The notes below the pieces were generated by a model. It had not been told where the DNA came from. It did not search any database and was given only the letters and a program-made list of their open reading frames with translations. Positions 3,430 through 12,592 of a DNA stretch of 64,000 bases are shown one piece after another. Position 1 is the first letter of the stretch. The number at the start of each line of letters is the position of its first letter. A program made the translations under genes and the position numbers. Source of the DNA: Hyphomicrobiales bacterium (GTDB taxonomy: Bacteria > Pseudomonadota > Alphaproteobacteria > Rhizobiales > Beijerinckiaceae). Location: assembly GCA_947455995.1 (NCBI GenBank), contig CANGQA010000002.1:1-64000 (forward strand), in the 5' to 3' direction.

Positions 3430-3748
3430 CGGTGACTCCTTGAGAATGTGGTGCTTGCCTCATGAATGTCTTTGCCGGATCCGGCATAAACGGGAAGAAT
3501 GATGAACGGTATTGCTGCACTGCGCCATAAGCTAAAAGTTGAGGTCAGGCATAAATTTGGATCAAATGGGCAAAAAAATGCAACTTTCACGATTACGGCA
3601 CCTGTTCTCTTCATCTTAATGCTGAGTGACAGACGAACAAAGATGCCGCATGATATCGAATGTTGCGATGCAATATAGCCTGCAAAAAGACTCTTCAACG
3701 ATGCAGACCCTTCACCAATGCAGACCCTTTACCAATGGTGGTGCCGAG
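3430..3748. promoter_or_regulatory. ccr/ecm divergent control region
   Basis: The 319 bp between the divergent ccr and ecm starts must hold both promoters. Visible elements: a perfect 14-bp palindrome TGCCGGATCCGGCA at 3473-3486, about 45 bp upstream of ccr; an inverted repeat TTGCGATGCAA at 3663-3673; and a 17-bp tandem direct repeat at 3701-3734. Short-chain acyl-CoA responsive regulators of the RamB/PccR type bind TTGC/GCAA half sites in related bacteria, so the second element is a reasonable operator candidate. That assignment is inference. Confidence 0.5.
3701..3734. repeat. 17-bp tandem direct repeat upstream of ecm
   Basis: Two adjacent copies of ATGCAGACCCTTCACCA (3701-3717) and ATGCAGACCCTTTACCA (3718-3734), differing at one base. 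They end 14 bp before the chosen ecm start. Each copy begins with ATG and the first lies in the ecm frame, so the repeat could also lengthen the N-terminus if an upstream start is used. Confidence 0.8.
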
Positions 3749-5764
3749 ATGACGACGACTGCAAGTTCGCCCGCCCGCAAGCCAGGCGCTTCCTCGATCA
3801 ACCCGGCAACCATCGATAAGCCGTGGATTTTCCGGACCTATGCGGGCCATTCAACCGCTGCGGACTCGAACGCGCTGTATCGGGCTAATCTTGCCAAAGG
3901 GCAGACAGGCCTCTCTGTCGCATTCGATCTGCCGACCCAGACAGGTTACGATCCCGATCATGTGCTGGCGCGTGGTGAGGTTGGCAAGGTTGGGGTTTCG
4001 ATTGCCCATCTCGGTGATATGCGTGCGCTGTTTCATGCGTTGCCAGTGGTCGAGATGAACACGTCGATGACCATCAATGCCACAGCCGCATGGTTGCTGG
4101 CCCTGTTTGTGGCTGTCGCTGACGAGCAGGGCGCGCCGCGTCATCTATTGCAGGGCACAACCCAGAACGACATCATCAAGGAATATCTGTCGCGCGGCAC
4201 TTATGTGTTTCCGCCAGCGCCATCAATGCGGTTGATCCGTGATACGATTTTGTTCGCCACCTCCGACATGCCGAAATGGAACCCGACCAATGTGTGCTCC
4301 TATCACTTGCAGGAGGCCGGGGCGACGCCCGTACAGGAATTGGCCTTTGCGCTGGCCACAGCCATTGCCGTGCTGGACGAGGTCAAGGCGTCGGGTCAGT
4401 TCACCGATCAGGCCTTTGGCGAGATTGTCGGCCGCATTTCGTTTTTCGTGAATGCAGGCATGCGCTTTGTTACAGAATTATGCAAAATGCGTGCATTTAC
4501 CGAATTGTGGGATGACATTACCCGGGATCGCTACGGAGTCACTGATGAAAAACATCGGCGGTTCCGCTACGGTGTGCAGGTCAATTCCTTGGGGCTGACC
4601 GAGCAGCAACCGGAAAACAACGTCTATCGCATTTTGATTGAAATGCTGGCGGTGGTGTTATCCAAGCGGGCGCGGGCGCGTGCGGTGCAGCTTCCTGCCT
4701 GGAATGAGGCGCTGGGCCTGCCGCGTCCATGGGATCAGCAATGGTCTTTGCGGATGCAGCAGGTCATGGCCTATGAGACCGATTTGCTCGAATACGGCGA
4801 TATTTTTGACGGTTCGACCGAGATCGAACGCAAGGTGGCTGAATTGAAAGAAGCGGCGCGTTTGGCGTTGTCAGAGATAGAGGAGGCCGGCGGGGCTGTA
4901 GCGGCCATCGAACAGGGTCTGATGAAACGGGCGCTGGTGGAATCCAATGCACGCCGGATTGCAGGCATCGAATCGGGTCGTCAGGTCGTGGTGGGAGTTA
5001 ATCGCTGGGGCGACAGCGAACAATCGCCGCTGACAGCGGGCGAAGGCACAGTGATGACCGTGTCCGAACAGGTTGAAACCGATGCGGTGTTGCGGATCAG
5101 GGAGTGGCGCGACAATCGGGATGGATCACAGGTGGCCAAGGCACTGGCAGAGCTGGAACAGGCGGCCCGTTCCGACACCAATATCATGGACGCATCGATC
5201 CTCTGCGCCAAAGTGGGGGTGACCACCGGTGAATGGGGCGAAACCTTGCGGAACGTGTTTGGTCGTTATCGTGCGCCCACTGGCGTGACGTTCGATACCT
5301 GCACCGATCCTGCCGACGACGAGGTGCGGATGGTGGTGGCCGATTTGGCCGAACTGCTTGGCGAGACCCCGCGCATGCTGGTCGGCAAACCGGGGTTGGA
5401 TGGCCATTCCAATGGAGCAGAGCAAATTGCTTTGCGGGGCCGTGATGTCGGTTTCGATGTAACCTATGAAGGTATTCGCCTCACACCCGAAGAGATTGTT
5501 GCCCAGGCATTAGCCACCCGGGCGCATGTGGTGGGGCTGTCGATCTTGTCGGGCTCGCATGTGCCCTTGGTTCGCGATGTCATGGCGCGGATGCGCAATG
5601 CGGGCTTGGCGCATATTCCGGTGGTGGTGGGCGGCATTATTCCGCCTGATGACGAAAATGTGCTTCGCAATATGGGTGTGACGGCCATTTATACGCCGAA
5701 AGATTATGCGATGGATGCCATCATGAAGGATATTGTGCGGATTGTGCGCAAATCCATCACCTGA
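3749..5764 (+). CDS. ecm: (2R)-ethylmalonyl-CoA mutase
   Basis: Adenosylcobalamin-dependent mutase converting ethylmalonyl-CoA to methylsuccinyl-CoA. The open frame extends upstream to 3626, but the ATG at 3749 gives 671 residues, close to the family length, and the preceding residues look non-conserved. The N-terminal catalytic barrel carries FRTYAGHSTAADSNALYR and LSVAFDLPTQTGYD. The C-terminal B12-binding domain carries the DxHxxG motif as KPGLDGHSNGAEQIALRG, followed by GLSILSGSH and VVVGGIIPPDD. Methylmalonyl-CoA mutase is the nearest alternative, but the single-chain ~670-residue architecture beside ccr and mcd points to Ecm. It is divergent from ccr. Confidence 0.93.
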   Translation: MTTTASSPARKPGASSINPATIDKPWIFRTYAGHSTAADSNALYRANLAKGQTGLSVAFDLPTQTGYDPDHVLARGEVGKVGVSIAHLGDMRALFHALPVVEMNTSMTINATAAWLLALFVAVADEQGAPRHLLQGTTQNDIIKEYLSRGTYVFPPAPSMRLIRDTILFATSDMPKWNPTNVCSYHLQEAGATPVQELAFALATAIAVLDEVKASGQFTDQAFGEIVGRISFFVNAGMRFVTELCKMRAFTELWDDITRDRYGVTDEKHRRFRYGVQVNSLGLTEQQPENNVYRILIEMLAVVLSKRARARAVQLPAWNEALGLPRPWDQQWSLRMQQVMAYETDLLEYGDIFDGSTEIERKVAELKEAARLALSEIEEAGGAVAAIEQGLMKRALVESNARRIAGIESGRQVVVGVNRWGDSEQSPLTAGEGTVMTVSEQVETDAVLRIREWRDNRDGSQVAKALAELEQAARSDTNIMDASILCAKVGVTTGEWGETLRNVFGRYRAPTGVTFDTCTDPADDEVRMVVADLAELLGETPRMLVGKPGLDGHSNGAEQIALRGRDVGFDVTYEGIRLTPEEIVAQALATRAHVVGLSILSGSHVPLVRDVMARMRNAGLAHIPVVVGGIIPPDDENVLRNMGVTAIYTPKDYAMDAIMKDIVRIVRKSIT

Positions 5765-5770
5765 TGCCGC

Positions 5771-5785
5771 GTCCCGTATCGGGAC
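5771..5785 (+). terminator. hairpin after ecm, weak terminator candidate
   Basis: GTCCCG at 5771-5776 pairs perfectly with CGGGAC at 5780-5785 around a TAT loop, six bases after the ecm stop. There is no T-run, so it may be an RNA-stabilising hairpin or a degenerate edge of the adjoining repeat array rather than an intrinsic terminator. Confidence 0.4.
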
Positions 5786-5882
5786 ATATTCGGCTGAATG
5801 GAGAACATCCGGTGTCCGAATCGGCACTGGCGGCTTTGGCCCGGTCATTCAGGATGCTGGCAAGACAGAAGCGTTGTTATGG

Positions 5883-5897
5883 TTAATAAAAGCCTAA
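5883..5897. promoter_or_regulatory. CtrA-like box, repeat unit 1 (one mismatch)
   Basis: TTAA-N7-CTAA, one base away from the CtrA consensus TTAA-N7-TTAA. It sits at the same position in its repeat unit as the perfect boxes of units 2-4. Confidence 0.45.
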
Positions 5898-6026
5898 TAT
5901 TGCCTGTCTTTGTCATCCCCAATCAAGACAGTTCGGGGACGAGCGGGAACAGGGCGTGACCGAATCGGGATTGATGGTTTTGGCCGCTTGATTCACACAT
6001 CTGGCACTATCAAACCGTCGTGATGG

Positions 6027-6041
6027 TTAATCGAAACTTAA
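6027..6041. promoter_or_regulatory. CtrA-like box, repeat unit 2
   Basis: Perfect TTAA-N7-TTAA (spacer TCGAAAC), matching the alphaproteobacterial CtrA consensus. It lies 30 bp after the TGATTCACA box of the same unit. Confidence 0.6.
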
Positions 6042-6170
6042 AACCTGATGTCTGTGAAATCCCGATTCAGGACAGTTCGGGGGCGAGCGGGAACAGGCCG
6101 TGACCGAATCGGAATTGGCGGTTTTGGCCTACTGATTCACAGTTCTGGCACTATCAAACCGTCATGATGG

Positions 6171-6185
6171 TTAATCGAAACTTAA
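6171..6185. promoter_or_regulatory. CtrA-like box, repeat unit 3
   Basis: Perfect TTAA-N7-TTAA with the same spacer as unit 2, exactly 144 bp downstream of it. Confidence 0.6.
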
Positions 6186-6314
6186 TACCCGATCTCTGTG
6201 AAATCCCTGTTCAGGACAGATCGGGGATGAGCGGGAACAGGCCATGTCCGAATCGGCATTGATGGTTTTGGCCGCTTGATTGATCCGGCTGGCAAGTCCT
6301 GGGGCTGATTATGG

Positions 6315-6329
6315 TTAATACGCTCTTAA
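6315..6329. promoter_or_regulatory. CtrA-like box, repeat unit 4
   Basis: Perfect TTAA-N7-TTAA. The spacer (TACGCTC) differs from that of units 2 and 3 at most positions while both half sites are kept. That suggests constraint on the box itself rather than mere recent duplication. Confidence 0.6.
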
Positions 6330-6457
6330 GAACCCAGATTTGGCCAATCCCTTTTCGGGATCAATCAGGGACAAGCGCGAACAGGCCATGACCGAATCGG
6401 GATAGTGCCTTGTGCGGTCACGTTGTCGATCGTTGGCAATAGAATTCACAAGTGAGG

Positions 6458-6466
6458 TTATCCACT
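6458..6466 (+). promoter_or_regulatory. DnaA-box-like site
   Basis: TTATCCACT differs from the DnaA consensus TTATCCACA at the last base. It lies within the fifth repeat unit, which is 20 bp longer than the others, just before that unit's TTAA element. A single near-match is weak on its own. The related nonamers TGATTCACA at 5989-5997 and 6133-6141 resemble the G-boxes of the Caulobacter origin (TGATCCACA). Confidence 0.35.
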
Positions 6467-6603
6467 ACTGTGAACATCGTTAATAAATGGTAATTGCCAA
6501 GTATTTTCAATTCCTTGTTCGGGACAAAACGCATCTAACCATGAACGGAACCAGTCCGAATCGGGGTGGAATCAGCTGAATGGGATTGGTAAAATATTGC
6601 TGC

Positions 6604-7497
6604 TTACAGCTTGGGATCGGGCCAGCCGCGCCGCTTTGCTGCTGCAGTCATGGTGTTGGCTAACAGGCAAGCAATGGTCATCGGCCCGACACCGCCAGGC
6701 ACAGGCGTGATGAATGAGGCCCGGGTTGAGGCCGAGACGAAATCAACATCGCCGACCAGCCGGGTTTTGCCCTCTCCCTTGGAGGGATCCGGGATCCGGT
6801 TGATGCCGACATCGATCACAATCGCACCTGGCTTGATCCAGTCACCTTTGACCATTTCGGGACGGCCTACAGCGGCCACCAGAATATCGGCACGCCGGCA
6901 AATGGCAGGCAGATCGTGACTCCTGGAATGGGCTATAGTGACCGTGCAGCTTTGGGCCAGCAGCAATTGCGCCATCGGTTTGCCGACAATATTGGAACGC
7001 CCCACCACCACGGCTTCAAGCCCTGCAAGATCAGCCTTGACCGATTGAAGCAGTTTCAGACTGCCCAACGGCGTGCAGGGGACCAAGCCGCCGGTCCCGG
7101 TCATCAATCGTCCAGCATTGATCGGGTGGAAGCCGTCGACATCCTTGGCAGGGTCAATGGCAGCAATGACGGCATCGGCATCAATCTGGGCGGGCAGCGG
7201 CAGTTGAACCAGAATACCGTCCACCGAAGGGTCGGCATTGAGGGTGGCGACAACAGCCAGCAATTCGGCCTGTGTTGCCGTTTCGGGAAGCATATGTTCA
7301 ATCGAATTCAAGCCCGCCTCTTTGGTCATTTTGATTTTGGAGCGGACATAGACCTGAGAGGCCGGATTGTTGCCCACCAGCACAACGGCAAGGCCAGGCA
7401 CAACGCCGTGCCGGTCCAGAATATCGGCGGCATAGGCGGCCACTTTGGCGCGAAGGTTCGCTGCAATGGTGGTGCCGTCAATCAATTGTGCTGTCAT
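6604..7497 (-). CDS. folD: bifunctional methylenetetrahydrofolate dehydrogenase/cyclohydrolase
   Basis: Cytosolic FolD interconverts 5,10-methylene-, 5,10-methenyl- and 10-formyl-tetrahydrofolate with NADP. It is 297 residues, the normal length. Family signatures are [13 protein letters not shown] (with the catalytic lysine), [27 protein letters not shown] for the Rossmann loop, and [13 protein letters not shown] near the C-terminus. It heads a minus-strand run with yggU and yggT. Its 3' end abuts the repeat array. Confidence is high because all motifs are intact. Confidence 0.96.
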
Positions 7498-10091: not shown

Positions 10092-11144
10092 ATGACAAAA
10101 TCGCCGAAATCCGCCCATTCGCTTGCGCAGTTGGCAGCCCTTGGGCTGATCGATGTGGATGAACAGGATCGGTTGGCCCCGATTGCCGCGCGTTATGCCA
10201 TAGCCGTTACTGCTCCGATGCTGGATTTGATCGCGGAGGGGGATCGTCATGATCCGATTGCCCGCCAGTTTCTGCCCCGTATGGAGGAGGGAGTCGCTGG
10301 AGCCTTCGAGCGGGATGATCCTGTCGGAGACAATGCGTTCAGTCCTTGTCCGGGGATCGTGCATCGCTATCCTGATCGCGCTTTGTTGAAACTGGTATCG
10401 ATTTGCCCGGTCTATTGCCGCTTCTGCTTTCGCCGCGAGATGGTCGGTCCCGACAAAGGCGAGGGATTGAGCAAGGACCAACTGACCCAAGCCATCGCCT
10501 ATCTGTCCGACACACCGTCGATTTGGGAAGTGATTGTGACAGGTGGTGATCCGCTCATCCTGTCACCCCGCCGCTTGCGGCAGGTGGTGGAGGCGCTGGG
10601 CCGCATTCCCCATATCAAAACCATCCGGTGGCACTCACGCGTGCCGGTTGTCTCGCCCGATCATATCACCACGGAACTCGCCGAAGCGCTTTCCGCGTCG
10701 GGCAAGATCAACTGGGTGGCTATCCATGCCAACCATCCGCGCGAATTCACGCCCGCATTTGCAAAAGCCTGTCAAACCCTCCGGGCGGCAGACATCGGCC
10801 TGCTCAGCCAGAGCGTGCTGCTCAAAGGCATCAACGATAGCATCGAAACACTCGTCGGATTGATGCGCGGCTTTGTTGAACACGGTATCCGGCCCTATTA
10901 TTTGCATCATCCGGATCTGGCGCCGGGCACAGGCCATTTCCGTTTAAGCCTGTCGGAAGGCAAGGCATTGGTTGAAGGTCTGCGCGGCCATCTGTCGGGT
11001 CTGGCACAGCCAACCTATGTGCTCGATATTCCCGGCGGTTATGGAAAAGTCTCAATCCTGTCTGATGCAGTCACCATCGAGACGGCGGACCAGGCGCGCA
11101 TACGCGACAGGCATGGTGTCTTTCATTCCTACCCCCCGGTATGA
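10092..11144 (+). CDS. epmB: EF-P beta-lysylation protein, lysine 2,3-aminomutase
   Basis: Radical-SAM, PLP-dependent aminomutase producing (R)-beta-lysine for EpmA. The CxxxCxxC cluster motif is CPVYCRFCFRREMVG near residue 110, followed by VTGGDPLILSPRRL and the C-terminal YVLDIPGGYGK. The 350 residues fit EpmB rather than the longer clostridial-type KamA. It is co-directional with epmA. Its 3' end overlaps by 16 bp the 3' end of the convergent kinase gene. Confidence 0.93.
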   Translation: MTKSPKSAHSLAQLAALGLIDVDEQDRLAPIAARYAIAVTAPMLDLIAEGDRHDPIARQFLPRMEEGVAGAFERDDPVGDNAFSPCPGIVHRYPDRALLKLVSICPVYCRFCFRREMVGPDKGEGLSKDQLTQAIAYLSDTPSIWEVIVTGGDPLILSPRRLRQVVEALGRIPHIKTIRWHSRVPVVSPDHITTELAEALSASGKINWVAIHANHPREFTPAFAKACQTLRAADIGLLSQSVLLKGINDSIETLVGLMRGFVEHGIRPYYLHHPDLAPGTGHFRLSLSEGKALVEGLRGHLSGLAQPTYVLDIPGGYGKVSILSDAVTIETADQARIRDRHGVFHSYPPV

Positions 11145-12592
11145 TCCATCTCCGGTGTGGCACCATGCACGCTCGATGTGTCGTCGTCCTCACCAGTAAA
11201 GGTCAACCGCACCACGGTGACCGAGCAGGAGGCCTCGGCCACCACGCGGGATGACACGCTGCCGAGATAACGCCGCAGCGTGGAGTGTCCGCGCGCTCCC
11301 ACCACGATATGGTCTACGCTGTTGAAACGCGCATAATCGAGAATGGCCTGGGCCGGATCGACCGCCTCGATCACATGGAAACTGACACTTTCTTCCAGCA
11401 GATCGAGACTGCGTGCCCAATCCTTGAGAGCAACCAGCCGCTTGAGATAGATATTGCGCCCACCTTGGTCGAGGGCTTCGTCGAGCTTGACCAGCGAGGT
11501 TTTCAATACGGTCAGACAGACCAGTCGTGCTTCGGGATCGGTTTCGAGCAGACGCCTGACCAACCGCTTGACCGCATCGCTGATTGCATCGGCCTCGTCG
11601 ACCGAAAAATCCAGCGCGCACATAATGATCGGGGCCTTGTCGAGACGGTCCGCCACCCGCATCGGGGGTGCGATCACGCGATTTTGGCCCTGCCACCAGT
11701 TTTTGACACGTTTGACAAAGCCAGGTGATTTGGTGCGCGCCGCCCGCTCTGTTAGCACCACCTGATCAGGATTGCGCAAGGCATGGGCAAGTTGTCCGGC
11801 TGTCTGGAAGCGGTCATCAGGATCGACCTCCAGACATTTCAGGATGATTTCTTGTAACCATGGGGCGATATGGGGCTGTAAAGCCCGCAAAGGCCGTGGC
11901 TCGTGATAAAGCCGCTGACGCATGCCGGCTCGGGTTGAAGGATTGCCGAACGGTTTCTCGCCGCTGGCCATTTCATACAGCACCACACCAAGCGCAAAAA
12001 TATCGCTGCGCGGATCAGTGCGGATACCCAATACCTGTTCGGGAGCCATATAGGCGTTGGTACCGATCGGCTGATCGGATTCTTCGGCGAGCAAATCCGG
12101 CAATTCATCATGACGGGCGAGCCCGTAGTCGATCATCACAGCGGGGCCGCTTTCGCGCAGCATGATATTGGCCGGTTTGACATCGAGATGGATGACATGC
12201 TGGCGGTGGATGTCTTGCAAGGCGGTGGCGATTTTTGCCCCCAGCCAGCACACATCTTCAGGCGACAAGGGGGCATCCTTCAGACGGGCATCAAGAGATT
12301 TTCCAGGAAGCCGTTCGATCACCAAATGCGGGAGGATTGCAAAATCACCCACCGCAATCACCGCAGGGACATGCGGTCCGGTCAGGCGCGGGAGGATCAT
12401 ATGTTCGATTTCAAAACCGATTATGGCGGAGTGGTCGTCGCCTTCACCGAGAAACGGGACTTTCATCAACATCGAGCGTGTTTCGCCCGCTTTGGTGACG
12501 CGCCACAAGGCGGCCATACCCCCGGTATGGACCAATTCTTCCAGCTTGAAACCGTCGATCACCCGACCGGCACGCAAACGGTGGCTTTCCAT
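11129..12592 (-). CDS. Ser/Thr protein kinase with C-terminal UspA domain
   Basis: Fusion of a Hanks-type kinase (about residues 12-270) and a universal stress protein domain (about 330-475), 487 residues. Kinase features: Lys44 in MLMKVPF, catalytic loop HLDVKPAN with Asp137, DYG instead of DFG at 155-157, and YMAPEQV. The glycine loop (HTGGMA) is degenerate. The Usp part ends with VVGARGHSTLRRYLGSVSS, close to the ATP-binding pattern of UspA. No transmembrane segment is evident, so it is probably cytosolic. It follows a metallophosphoesterase gene after 2 bp, implying one transcript. Substrates are unknown. Confidence 0.9.
   Translation of the reverse strand: MESHRLRAGRVIDGFKLEELVHTGGMAALWRVTKAGETRSMLMKVPFLGEGDDHSAIIGFEIEHMILPRLTGPHVPAVIAVGDFAILPHLVIERLPGKSLDARLKDAPLSPEDVCWLGAKIATALQDIHRQHVIHLDVKPANIMLRESGPAVMIDYGLARHDELPDLLAEESDQPIGTNAYMAPEQVLGIRTDPRSDIFALGVVLYEMASGEKPFGNPSTRAGMRQRLYHEPRPLRALQPHIAPWLQEIILKCLEVDPDDRFQTAGQLAHALRNPDQVVLTERAARTKSPGFVKRVKNWWQGQNRVIAPPMRVADRLDKAPIIMCALDFSVDEADAISDAVKRLVRRLLETDPEARLVCLTVLKTSLVKLDEALDQGGRNIYLKRLVALKDWARSLDLLEESVSFHVIEAVDPAQAILDYARFNSVDHIVVGARGHSTLRRYLGSVSSRVVAEASCSVTVVRLTFTGEDDDTSSVHGATPEMDHTGG

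Follow-up and report, generated by a model that had tools for sequence, protein, structure and literature searches.

Between the convergent genes ecm and folD of a Hyphomicrobiales bacterium, in the stretch of 64,000 nucleotides analyzed here (the window), lies a tandem array of 144-bp units that we read, with moderate confidence, as a cis-acting, non-coding cluster of binding sites for more than one protein, which may have arisen as a moved and amplified copy of an element found in many Alphaproteobacteria and may serve as a platform or reservoir. Such a binding array would probably be cell-cycle responsive.

Units and conserved motifs of the array

The array extends over about 5771-6583 (no strand assigned) and so begins before 5812, the start given in an earlier note on this DNA. 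It sits in an 839-bp non-coding gap between ecm (3626-5764, + strand), which by Pfam encodes a mutase with a B12 domain, and folD (6604-7497, - strand), which encodes a FolD-type enzyme. The same note described non-coding tandem repeats of 144 bp at this place, and this description is borne out by TRF, which reports a 144-bp period, and by the six copies of a 22-nt core (repeat family D2), spaced at 144, 144, 144, 144, and 164 bp. The unit is composed of a constrained CtrA-type box, a TCCC...GGGA palindrome and the core GAAC-N10-CGAATC, which reads GATTCG-N10-GTTC on the opposite strand and contains a GANTC site. By this pattern the cores lie on the + strand at 5803..5822, 5947..5966, 6091..6110, 6235..6254, 6379..6398, and 6543..6562. 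The palindrome GTCCCG-TAT-CGGGAC occupies 5771..5785 (no strand), and versions of it, degenerate to varying degrees, return ~20 bp ahead of the later cores. Elsewhere in the window, positions 11129-12592 hold a protein kinase-like ORF with a C-terminal stretch that, by eye, resembles a universal stress domain.

There are five box positions, all on the + strand. Those at 6027..6041, 6171..6185, and 6315..6329 are exact copies of TTAA-N7-TTAA and that at 5883..5897 has one mismatch, just as the earlier note had reported; the fifth (6480..6494, in the 164-bp unit) is degenerate and keeps the left half. By sequence, the full CtrA binding site is therefore present three times exactly and once with one mismatch, and occupancy of these sites is predicted. 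The one-mismatch box keeps ATGGTTAA, the reverse complement of TTAACCAT, a reported CtrA motif variant (PMC6180460). Exact TTAA-N7-TTAA occurs at 24 sites in the 3.13 Mb of the genome, and the Poisson probability of three within 839 bp is ~4e-8, a figure to be read in the knowledge that tandem copies are non-independent events. A genome scan for other box clusters, as the earlier note had suggested, returned a single further pair within 1 kb, on contig C83. That note had also argued that 144 bp is close to 14 helical turns, which would place the boxes on one face; this argument is weak, since 144 bp corresponds to 14.0 turns only if a turn measures 10.3 bp, and to 13.7 turns if it measures 10.5 bp.

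The array was followed through the five genomes of the window genus, G000 (that of the window) to G004. A blastn search of 60 genomes, including that of the window, found it in G000, G001, G002, and G003 and as a short piece in G004, so that all matches fall in one genus; its location between ecm and folD is shared by G001 to G003. Across the five genomes there are 28 cores, located by the pattern GATTCG-N10-GTTC, and no position in the 144-bp register of G000-G003 is without one. In G004 the ecm side is kept, folD lies ~18 kb off in the opposite orientation and the cores are spaced at 163, 164, 164, and 98 bp. The ~18 kb between array and folD on this contig (C75) seems inverted relative to the window, with one breakpoint at or near the array.

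Identity by column across these species separates the motifs from the sequence around them. The left TTAA stands at 0.98 and the right TTAA at 0.82 (resampling p 0.012), the N7 of the box at 0.52 and the linker at 0.42; ATGG reaches 0.96, the N10 of the core 0.84, and the palindrome 0.83, while the value of 1.00 for GAAC and CGAATC is partly circular, the cores having been located by that pattern. Over the first four positions, exact half-sites are found in 14 of 15 units on the left and in nine of 15 on the right. The boxes thus stay while the spacers vary, as the earlier note's reading implied, and more firmly so for their left half. A CtrA gene, on which that reading also depended, is present in the genome as an orthologue at 81% identity, together with a GcrA gene. 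With a CtrA gene at hand and boxes slower to change than spacers, binding of the array by CtrA and some cell-cycle role are plausible. The number of exact boxes is three in G000, two each in G002 and G003, and one each in G001 and G004, and the arrays of the GC-rich genus g5 have no box within one mismatch except one near the G073 array; with so few CtrA boxes in some arrays, or none, the core may matter more than CtrA.

The array is also rich in GANTC, with ten sites against 1.3 expected from the contig. On the other strand the CGAATCG of the core fits YGAKTCK, the motif of GcrA/CcrM sites (PMC7987155), and a GcrA gene is present; however, GATTCG is also kept in AT-rich genomes of ~1.4 Mb (L229, L233, L234), so methylation need not explain its conservation.

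One might suppose that all this reflects neutral tandem duplication of a piece of promoter DNA in which the motifs occur by chance. Unit number does differ by whole units, G001 having one fewer, and in the window array unit 2 and its neighbour, unit 3, look homogenised. We nevertheless consider this account unlikely, as motif columns are held while spacers diverge, and in G004 the core is repeated at 163-164 bp. Indels argue in the same direction: the arrays of G000-G003 share 65 to 71 per cent identity, yet none of their six pairwise alignments contains an indel inside the array, events being confined to the first two or last dozen positions, and the largest event is the one whole unit missing in G001. 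Six other intergenic regions, five of them shorter than the array, gave none to seven indel events per pair; because one of these controls, efp-epmA (186 bp), is as indel-poor as the array, the contrast between array and controls is clear, not absolute.

A related element at Suv3-like helicase genes

The earlier note overlooked the more strongly conserved GAAC-N10-CGAATC and its tie to an element beside a Suv3-like helicase gene. A sequence-only profile, R1, was built from 23 units; in the window genome it gives six matches, all inside the array, and it matched 32 of 149 relatives (E <=0.01), five of them of the window genus, although weak single matches in this set may have arisen by chance. 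GAAC-N10-CGAATC itself is found at least once in 59 of 60 genomes, often as scattered single occurrences among the matches listed, so single occurrences mean little and clusters matter. Arrays at other loci have cores 156 bp apart (G008) or 111 bp apart (G097). The gene for the helicase (PF22527) adjoins a core or cluster in seven of 16 neighbourhoods, and in seven of 12 in a second set. A second profile, R2, matched 30 of 289 genomes of the class at one place each, with the helicase downstream at 26 of these 30 loci (the exceptions are L215, L216, L235, and L236). The window genome has no R2 match at E 0.01, as expected if the window array is derived. From these profile similarities we conclude that the core is related to the helicase-side element of many Alphaproteobacteria.

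Eight of 14 named records with the helicase, from a plasmid collection, were examined for the element. It is present in S. meliloti (two copies), Rhizobium sp. NLR16a (three), and Shinella sp.; Methylobacterium bullatum, Paracoccus versutus, Sphingomonas parapaucimobilis, Indioceanicola profundi, and Pseudorhodobacter turbinis gave no match to it at E 1. The three copies of Rhizobium sp. NLR16a (L238, 1831-2292) lie ~200 bp apart, which indicates that tandem growth occurred more than once. Eighty named FolD loci searched with R1 yielded one match only, at E 0.16, which was left unused. At L207-L234 a conserved element, often with a LexA-type repeat, lies upstream of the helicase start. The open-access literature, searched with the terms that we used, returned no description of element or array.

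Read in the direction of the helicase, the element often begins with YANATNT, followed by GAAC-N7-GAA, GATTCG and, at a fixed offset, GTTC-N7-GTTC. The alignment (A8) takes 22 sequences from the 30 class-level loci, adds 15 order-level blocks, and excludes L222, which was mis-placed in alignment A7. The hexamer YANATNT is present in the 19 nt that precede GAAC in 23 of the 37 helicase-linked sequences (against a mean of 1.3 and at most 6 in shuffles), and at a comparable place in one of the 28 units of the window genus. GTTC-N7-GTTC is exact at its fixed place in 18 of 42 helicase-side elements and within one mismatch in 15 more, a count of 42 that includes L166 and L243, which were anchored at the wrong GATTCG; shuffles give 0.02 exact and 0.26 within one mismatch. 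This repeat has been described as the alphaproteobacterial LexA operator (PMC3323433, PMC12907096). The fixed position of a known LexA site makes it a strong inference that LexA controls the Suv3-like helicase gene. While the helicase-side element resembles the LexA operator in this respect, the repeat has been lost from the arrays of the window genus: none of their 28 units has it exactly and one has it with one mismatch, and in other arrays two of 32 units are exact and four of 32 have one mismatch. The failure of the array to retain the LexA-type repeat seen beside the helicase counts against the reading that we prefer.

The present distribution of cores is consistent with relocation. The helicase gene of the window genome is on contig C92, and the array is not upstream of it; no core lies within 1.5 kb of the helicase in G000, G001, or G004. 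In a related genus, G008, G073, and G107 each have one core at the helicase locus and an array elsewhere. The genome G016 has kept an array of three cores at the helicase locus. The array of G073 lies by ecm, between a + strand ORF and ecm on the - strand, and those of G008 and G107 lie by an mcl-like gene. Copying, then amplification, then loss is the order that we infer from these few genomes without a tree. The helicase-side arrays of G016 and G080 have three CtrA-type boxes each within one mismatch, and so boxes need not be gained on moving; at that same tolerance, such boxes are absent from the moved arrays of G008 and G107. The array is bordered by the ends of genes in G000 and, as judged from ORF calls, in G073 and G008, making a promoter role for the neighbours unlikely there.

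Coding, transcript and origin readings

Coding repeats of 48 residues were considered and rejected on account of stops in all frames of G000 and of the presence of a 164-bp unit. The window array has at least ten stops in every frame, and its longest open run is 53 codons. Open frames in congeners (one minus frame of 224 codons and one plus frame of 181 in G003, and a longest frame of 95 codons in G002) are not common to the window.

The most serious rival to a binding platform is that the units are small-RNA genes, each under a promoter controlled by CtrA and arranged in tandem like other sibling sRNAs. An intergenic location between converging genes, neither of which offers a target for regulation, would suit such genes, and on the minus strand the box would lie ~40 nt before the conserved block by hand count, near where activating CtrA sites are reported (PMC6180460). 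Our preferred reading is indeed exposed here, as the conservation could also mean an RNA product. However, a consensus scan of the array, of a kind that may miss alphaproteobacterial promoters, found no sigma-70-like promoter or terminator, and RNAalifold gave a conserved hairpin of only 4 bp for the array units and no fold for the 37 helicase-linked sequences. A named 7-bp stem in these 37 sequences shows weak covariation, its score being reached by 16 of 500 shuffles. Rfam covariance models produced a single chance-level match in the window (E 0.22, below the gathering score) and no fitting family at the related loci. Taken together, small-RNA genes seem to us an unlikely explanation, if the best placed of the alternatives. 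Structured RNA at the helicase-side blocks was a separate candidate, rejected as the 7-bp stem obtained for 16 of them was no excess over shuffles.

The earlier note proposed that the array acts as an origin or a cell-cycle control region. The second part is plausible, as set out above; origin function is unsupported. A CtrA-controlled origin like that of Caulobacter would account for the joint presence of CtrA boxes, GANTC sites, and lower GC in the array, and for a DnaA-box-like sequence, TTATCCACT, at 6458..6466 (+ strand), which is one mismatch from TTATCCACA and is replaced by exact TTATCCACA in the congener G002. Two further sites in the window array are one mismatch from TGATCCACA, a DnaA motif of Caulobacter. 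On the other side, no array of the genus has more than two sites within one mismatch of TTATCCACA, and no facing pair of DnaA boxes (<=3 mismatches) was found in the five genomes. The sign of the GC skew does not change across the array in any of these genomes (left/right -0.018/-0.035 in G001 and -0.036/-0.025 in G004), measured over flanks that are short in places (left ~6 kb in G000 and ~4 kb in G003, right ~3 kb in G002).

Origin marks are instead gathered elsewhere. On contig C17 of G001, away from the array, hemE, PF03618 (COG1806), rho, gidA, parA, parB, and parS form one locus; DnaA-like boxes and clustered GANTC sites occur between hemE and PF03618, and similar box clusters are found on the parS contigs of G000, G002, and G003. 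In all five genomes parS and the array are on different contigs, with no parS (<=2 mismatches) on the contig of the array. In G131, a single contig whose skew was taken from 20 sampled 20-kb pieces plus the element locus, skew turns from negative to positive at 1.49-1.50 Mb, beside parS (1.485-1.487 Mb); the related element, ~330 kb away at 1.158 Mb, has negative skew on both sides. Arrays lie ~154 kb (G016) and ~137 kb (G073) from parS-type sites. The Caulobacter Cori is reported to be bounded by hemE and COG1806 and to contain five TTAA-N7-TTAA sites (PMC1914354). The window array resembles it in having several such sites in a single intergenic region, but differs in lying away from hemE/COG1806 and from any skew flip, in its few DnaA-like sites and in its regular 144-bp units. 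We judge that the joint CtrA, GANTC, and DnaA-like motifs are outweighed by the evidence against an origin, a candidate that we rejected on the sign of the skew, the separate hemE/COG1806/parS locus, and the flip at parS in G131, and that we regard as extremely improbable. An origin-like cluster of CtrA boxes that is very probably no origin is a warning against calling origins from CtrA boxes alone.

A proposed platform away from genes

We therefore return to the array as a cluster of binding sites. In the mechanism that we propose, the helicase-side copy would have moved and been amplified in the window genus, with the old copy lost; CtrA would sit on the boxes and at least one further protein on the core, side by side at a fixed spacing; and the array would serve the chromosome as a binding platform or reservoir, with its timing perhaps set by the cell cycle, being neither a promoter for its neighbours nor an origin. 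A platform or reservoir is preferred to a promoter because the array lies between gene ends and is without the promoter-like hexamer of many helicase-side copies.

Two narrower versions of a role away from the origin can be considered, both of which we hold to be doubtful. The datA and DARS loci of E. coli are titration or control loci away from the origin, and by analogy the array may titrate or control replication or cell-cycle proteins. CtrA, GANTC and sometimes DnaA motifs do occur together, and 31 element intervals (18.5 kb, chosen post hoc) contain four exact DnaA boxes, one each in L019 12987-13830 (G002), L142 (G032), L140 (G033), and L148 (G095). Sixteen neighbourhoods (307 kb) contain only two, inside the G033 and G095 elements, a comparison to be read with the greater A+T richness of intergenic DNA in mind. 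However, exact DnaA boxes are present in only four of the 31 intervals. The other version, to which we give the same low weight, is a movable control locus distant from the origin, in which an SOS-type operator would have been copied off the helicase gene and amplified, would have lost its LexA repeat and become linked to CtrA boxes, and would act in trans or on the chromosome by titrating or timing cell-cycle proteins.

For the Alphaproteobacteria more widely, the analysis uncovers a helicase-side element, without an Rfam family, in many members of the class, with Sinorhizobium meliloti, one Rhizobium, and one Shinella among them. Should the array act at a distance from any gene, it would offer a natural example of regulatory DNA that has been moved, multiplied, and re-wired.
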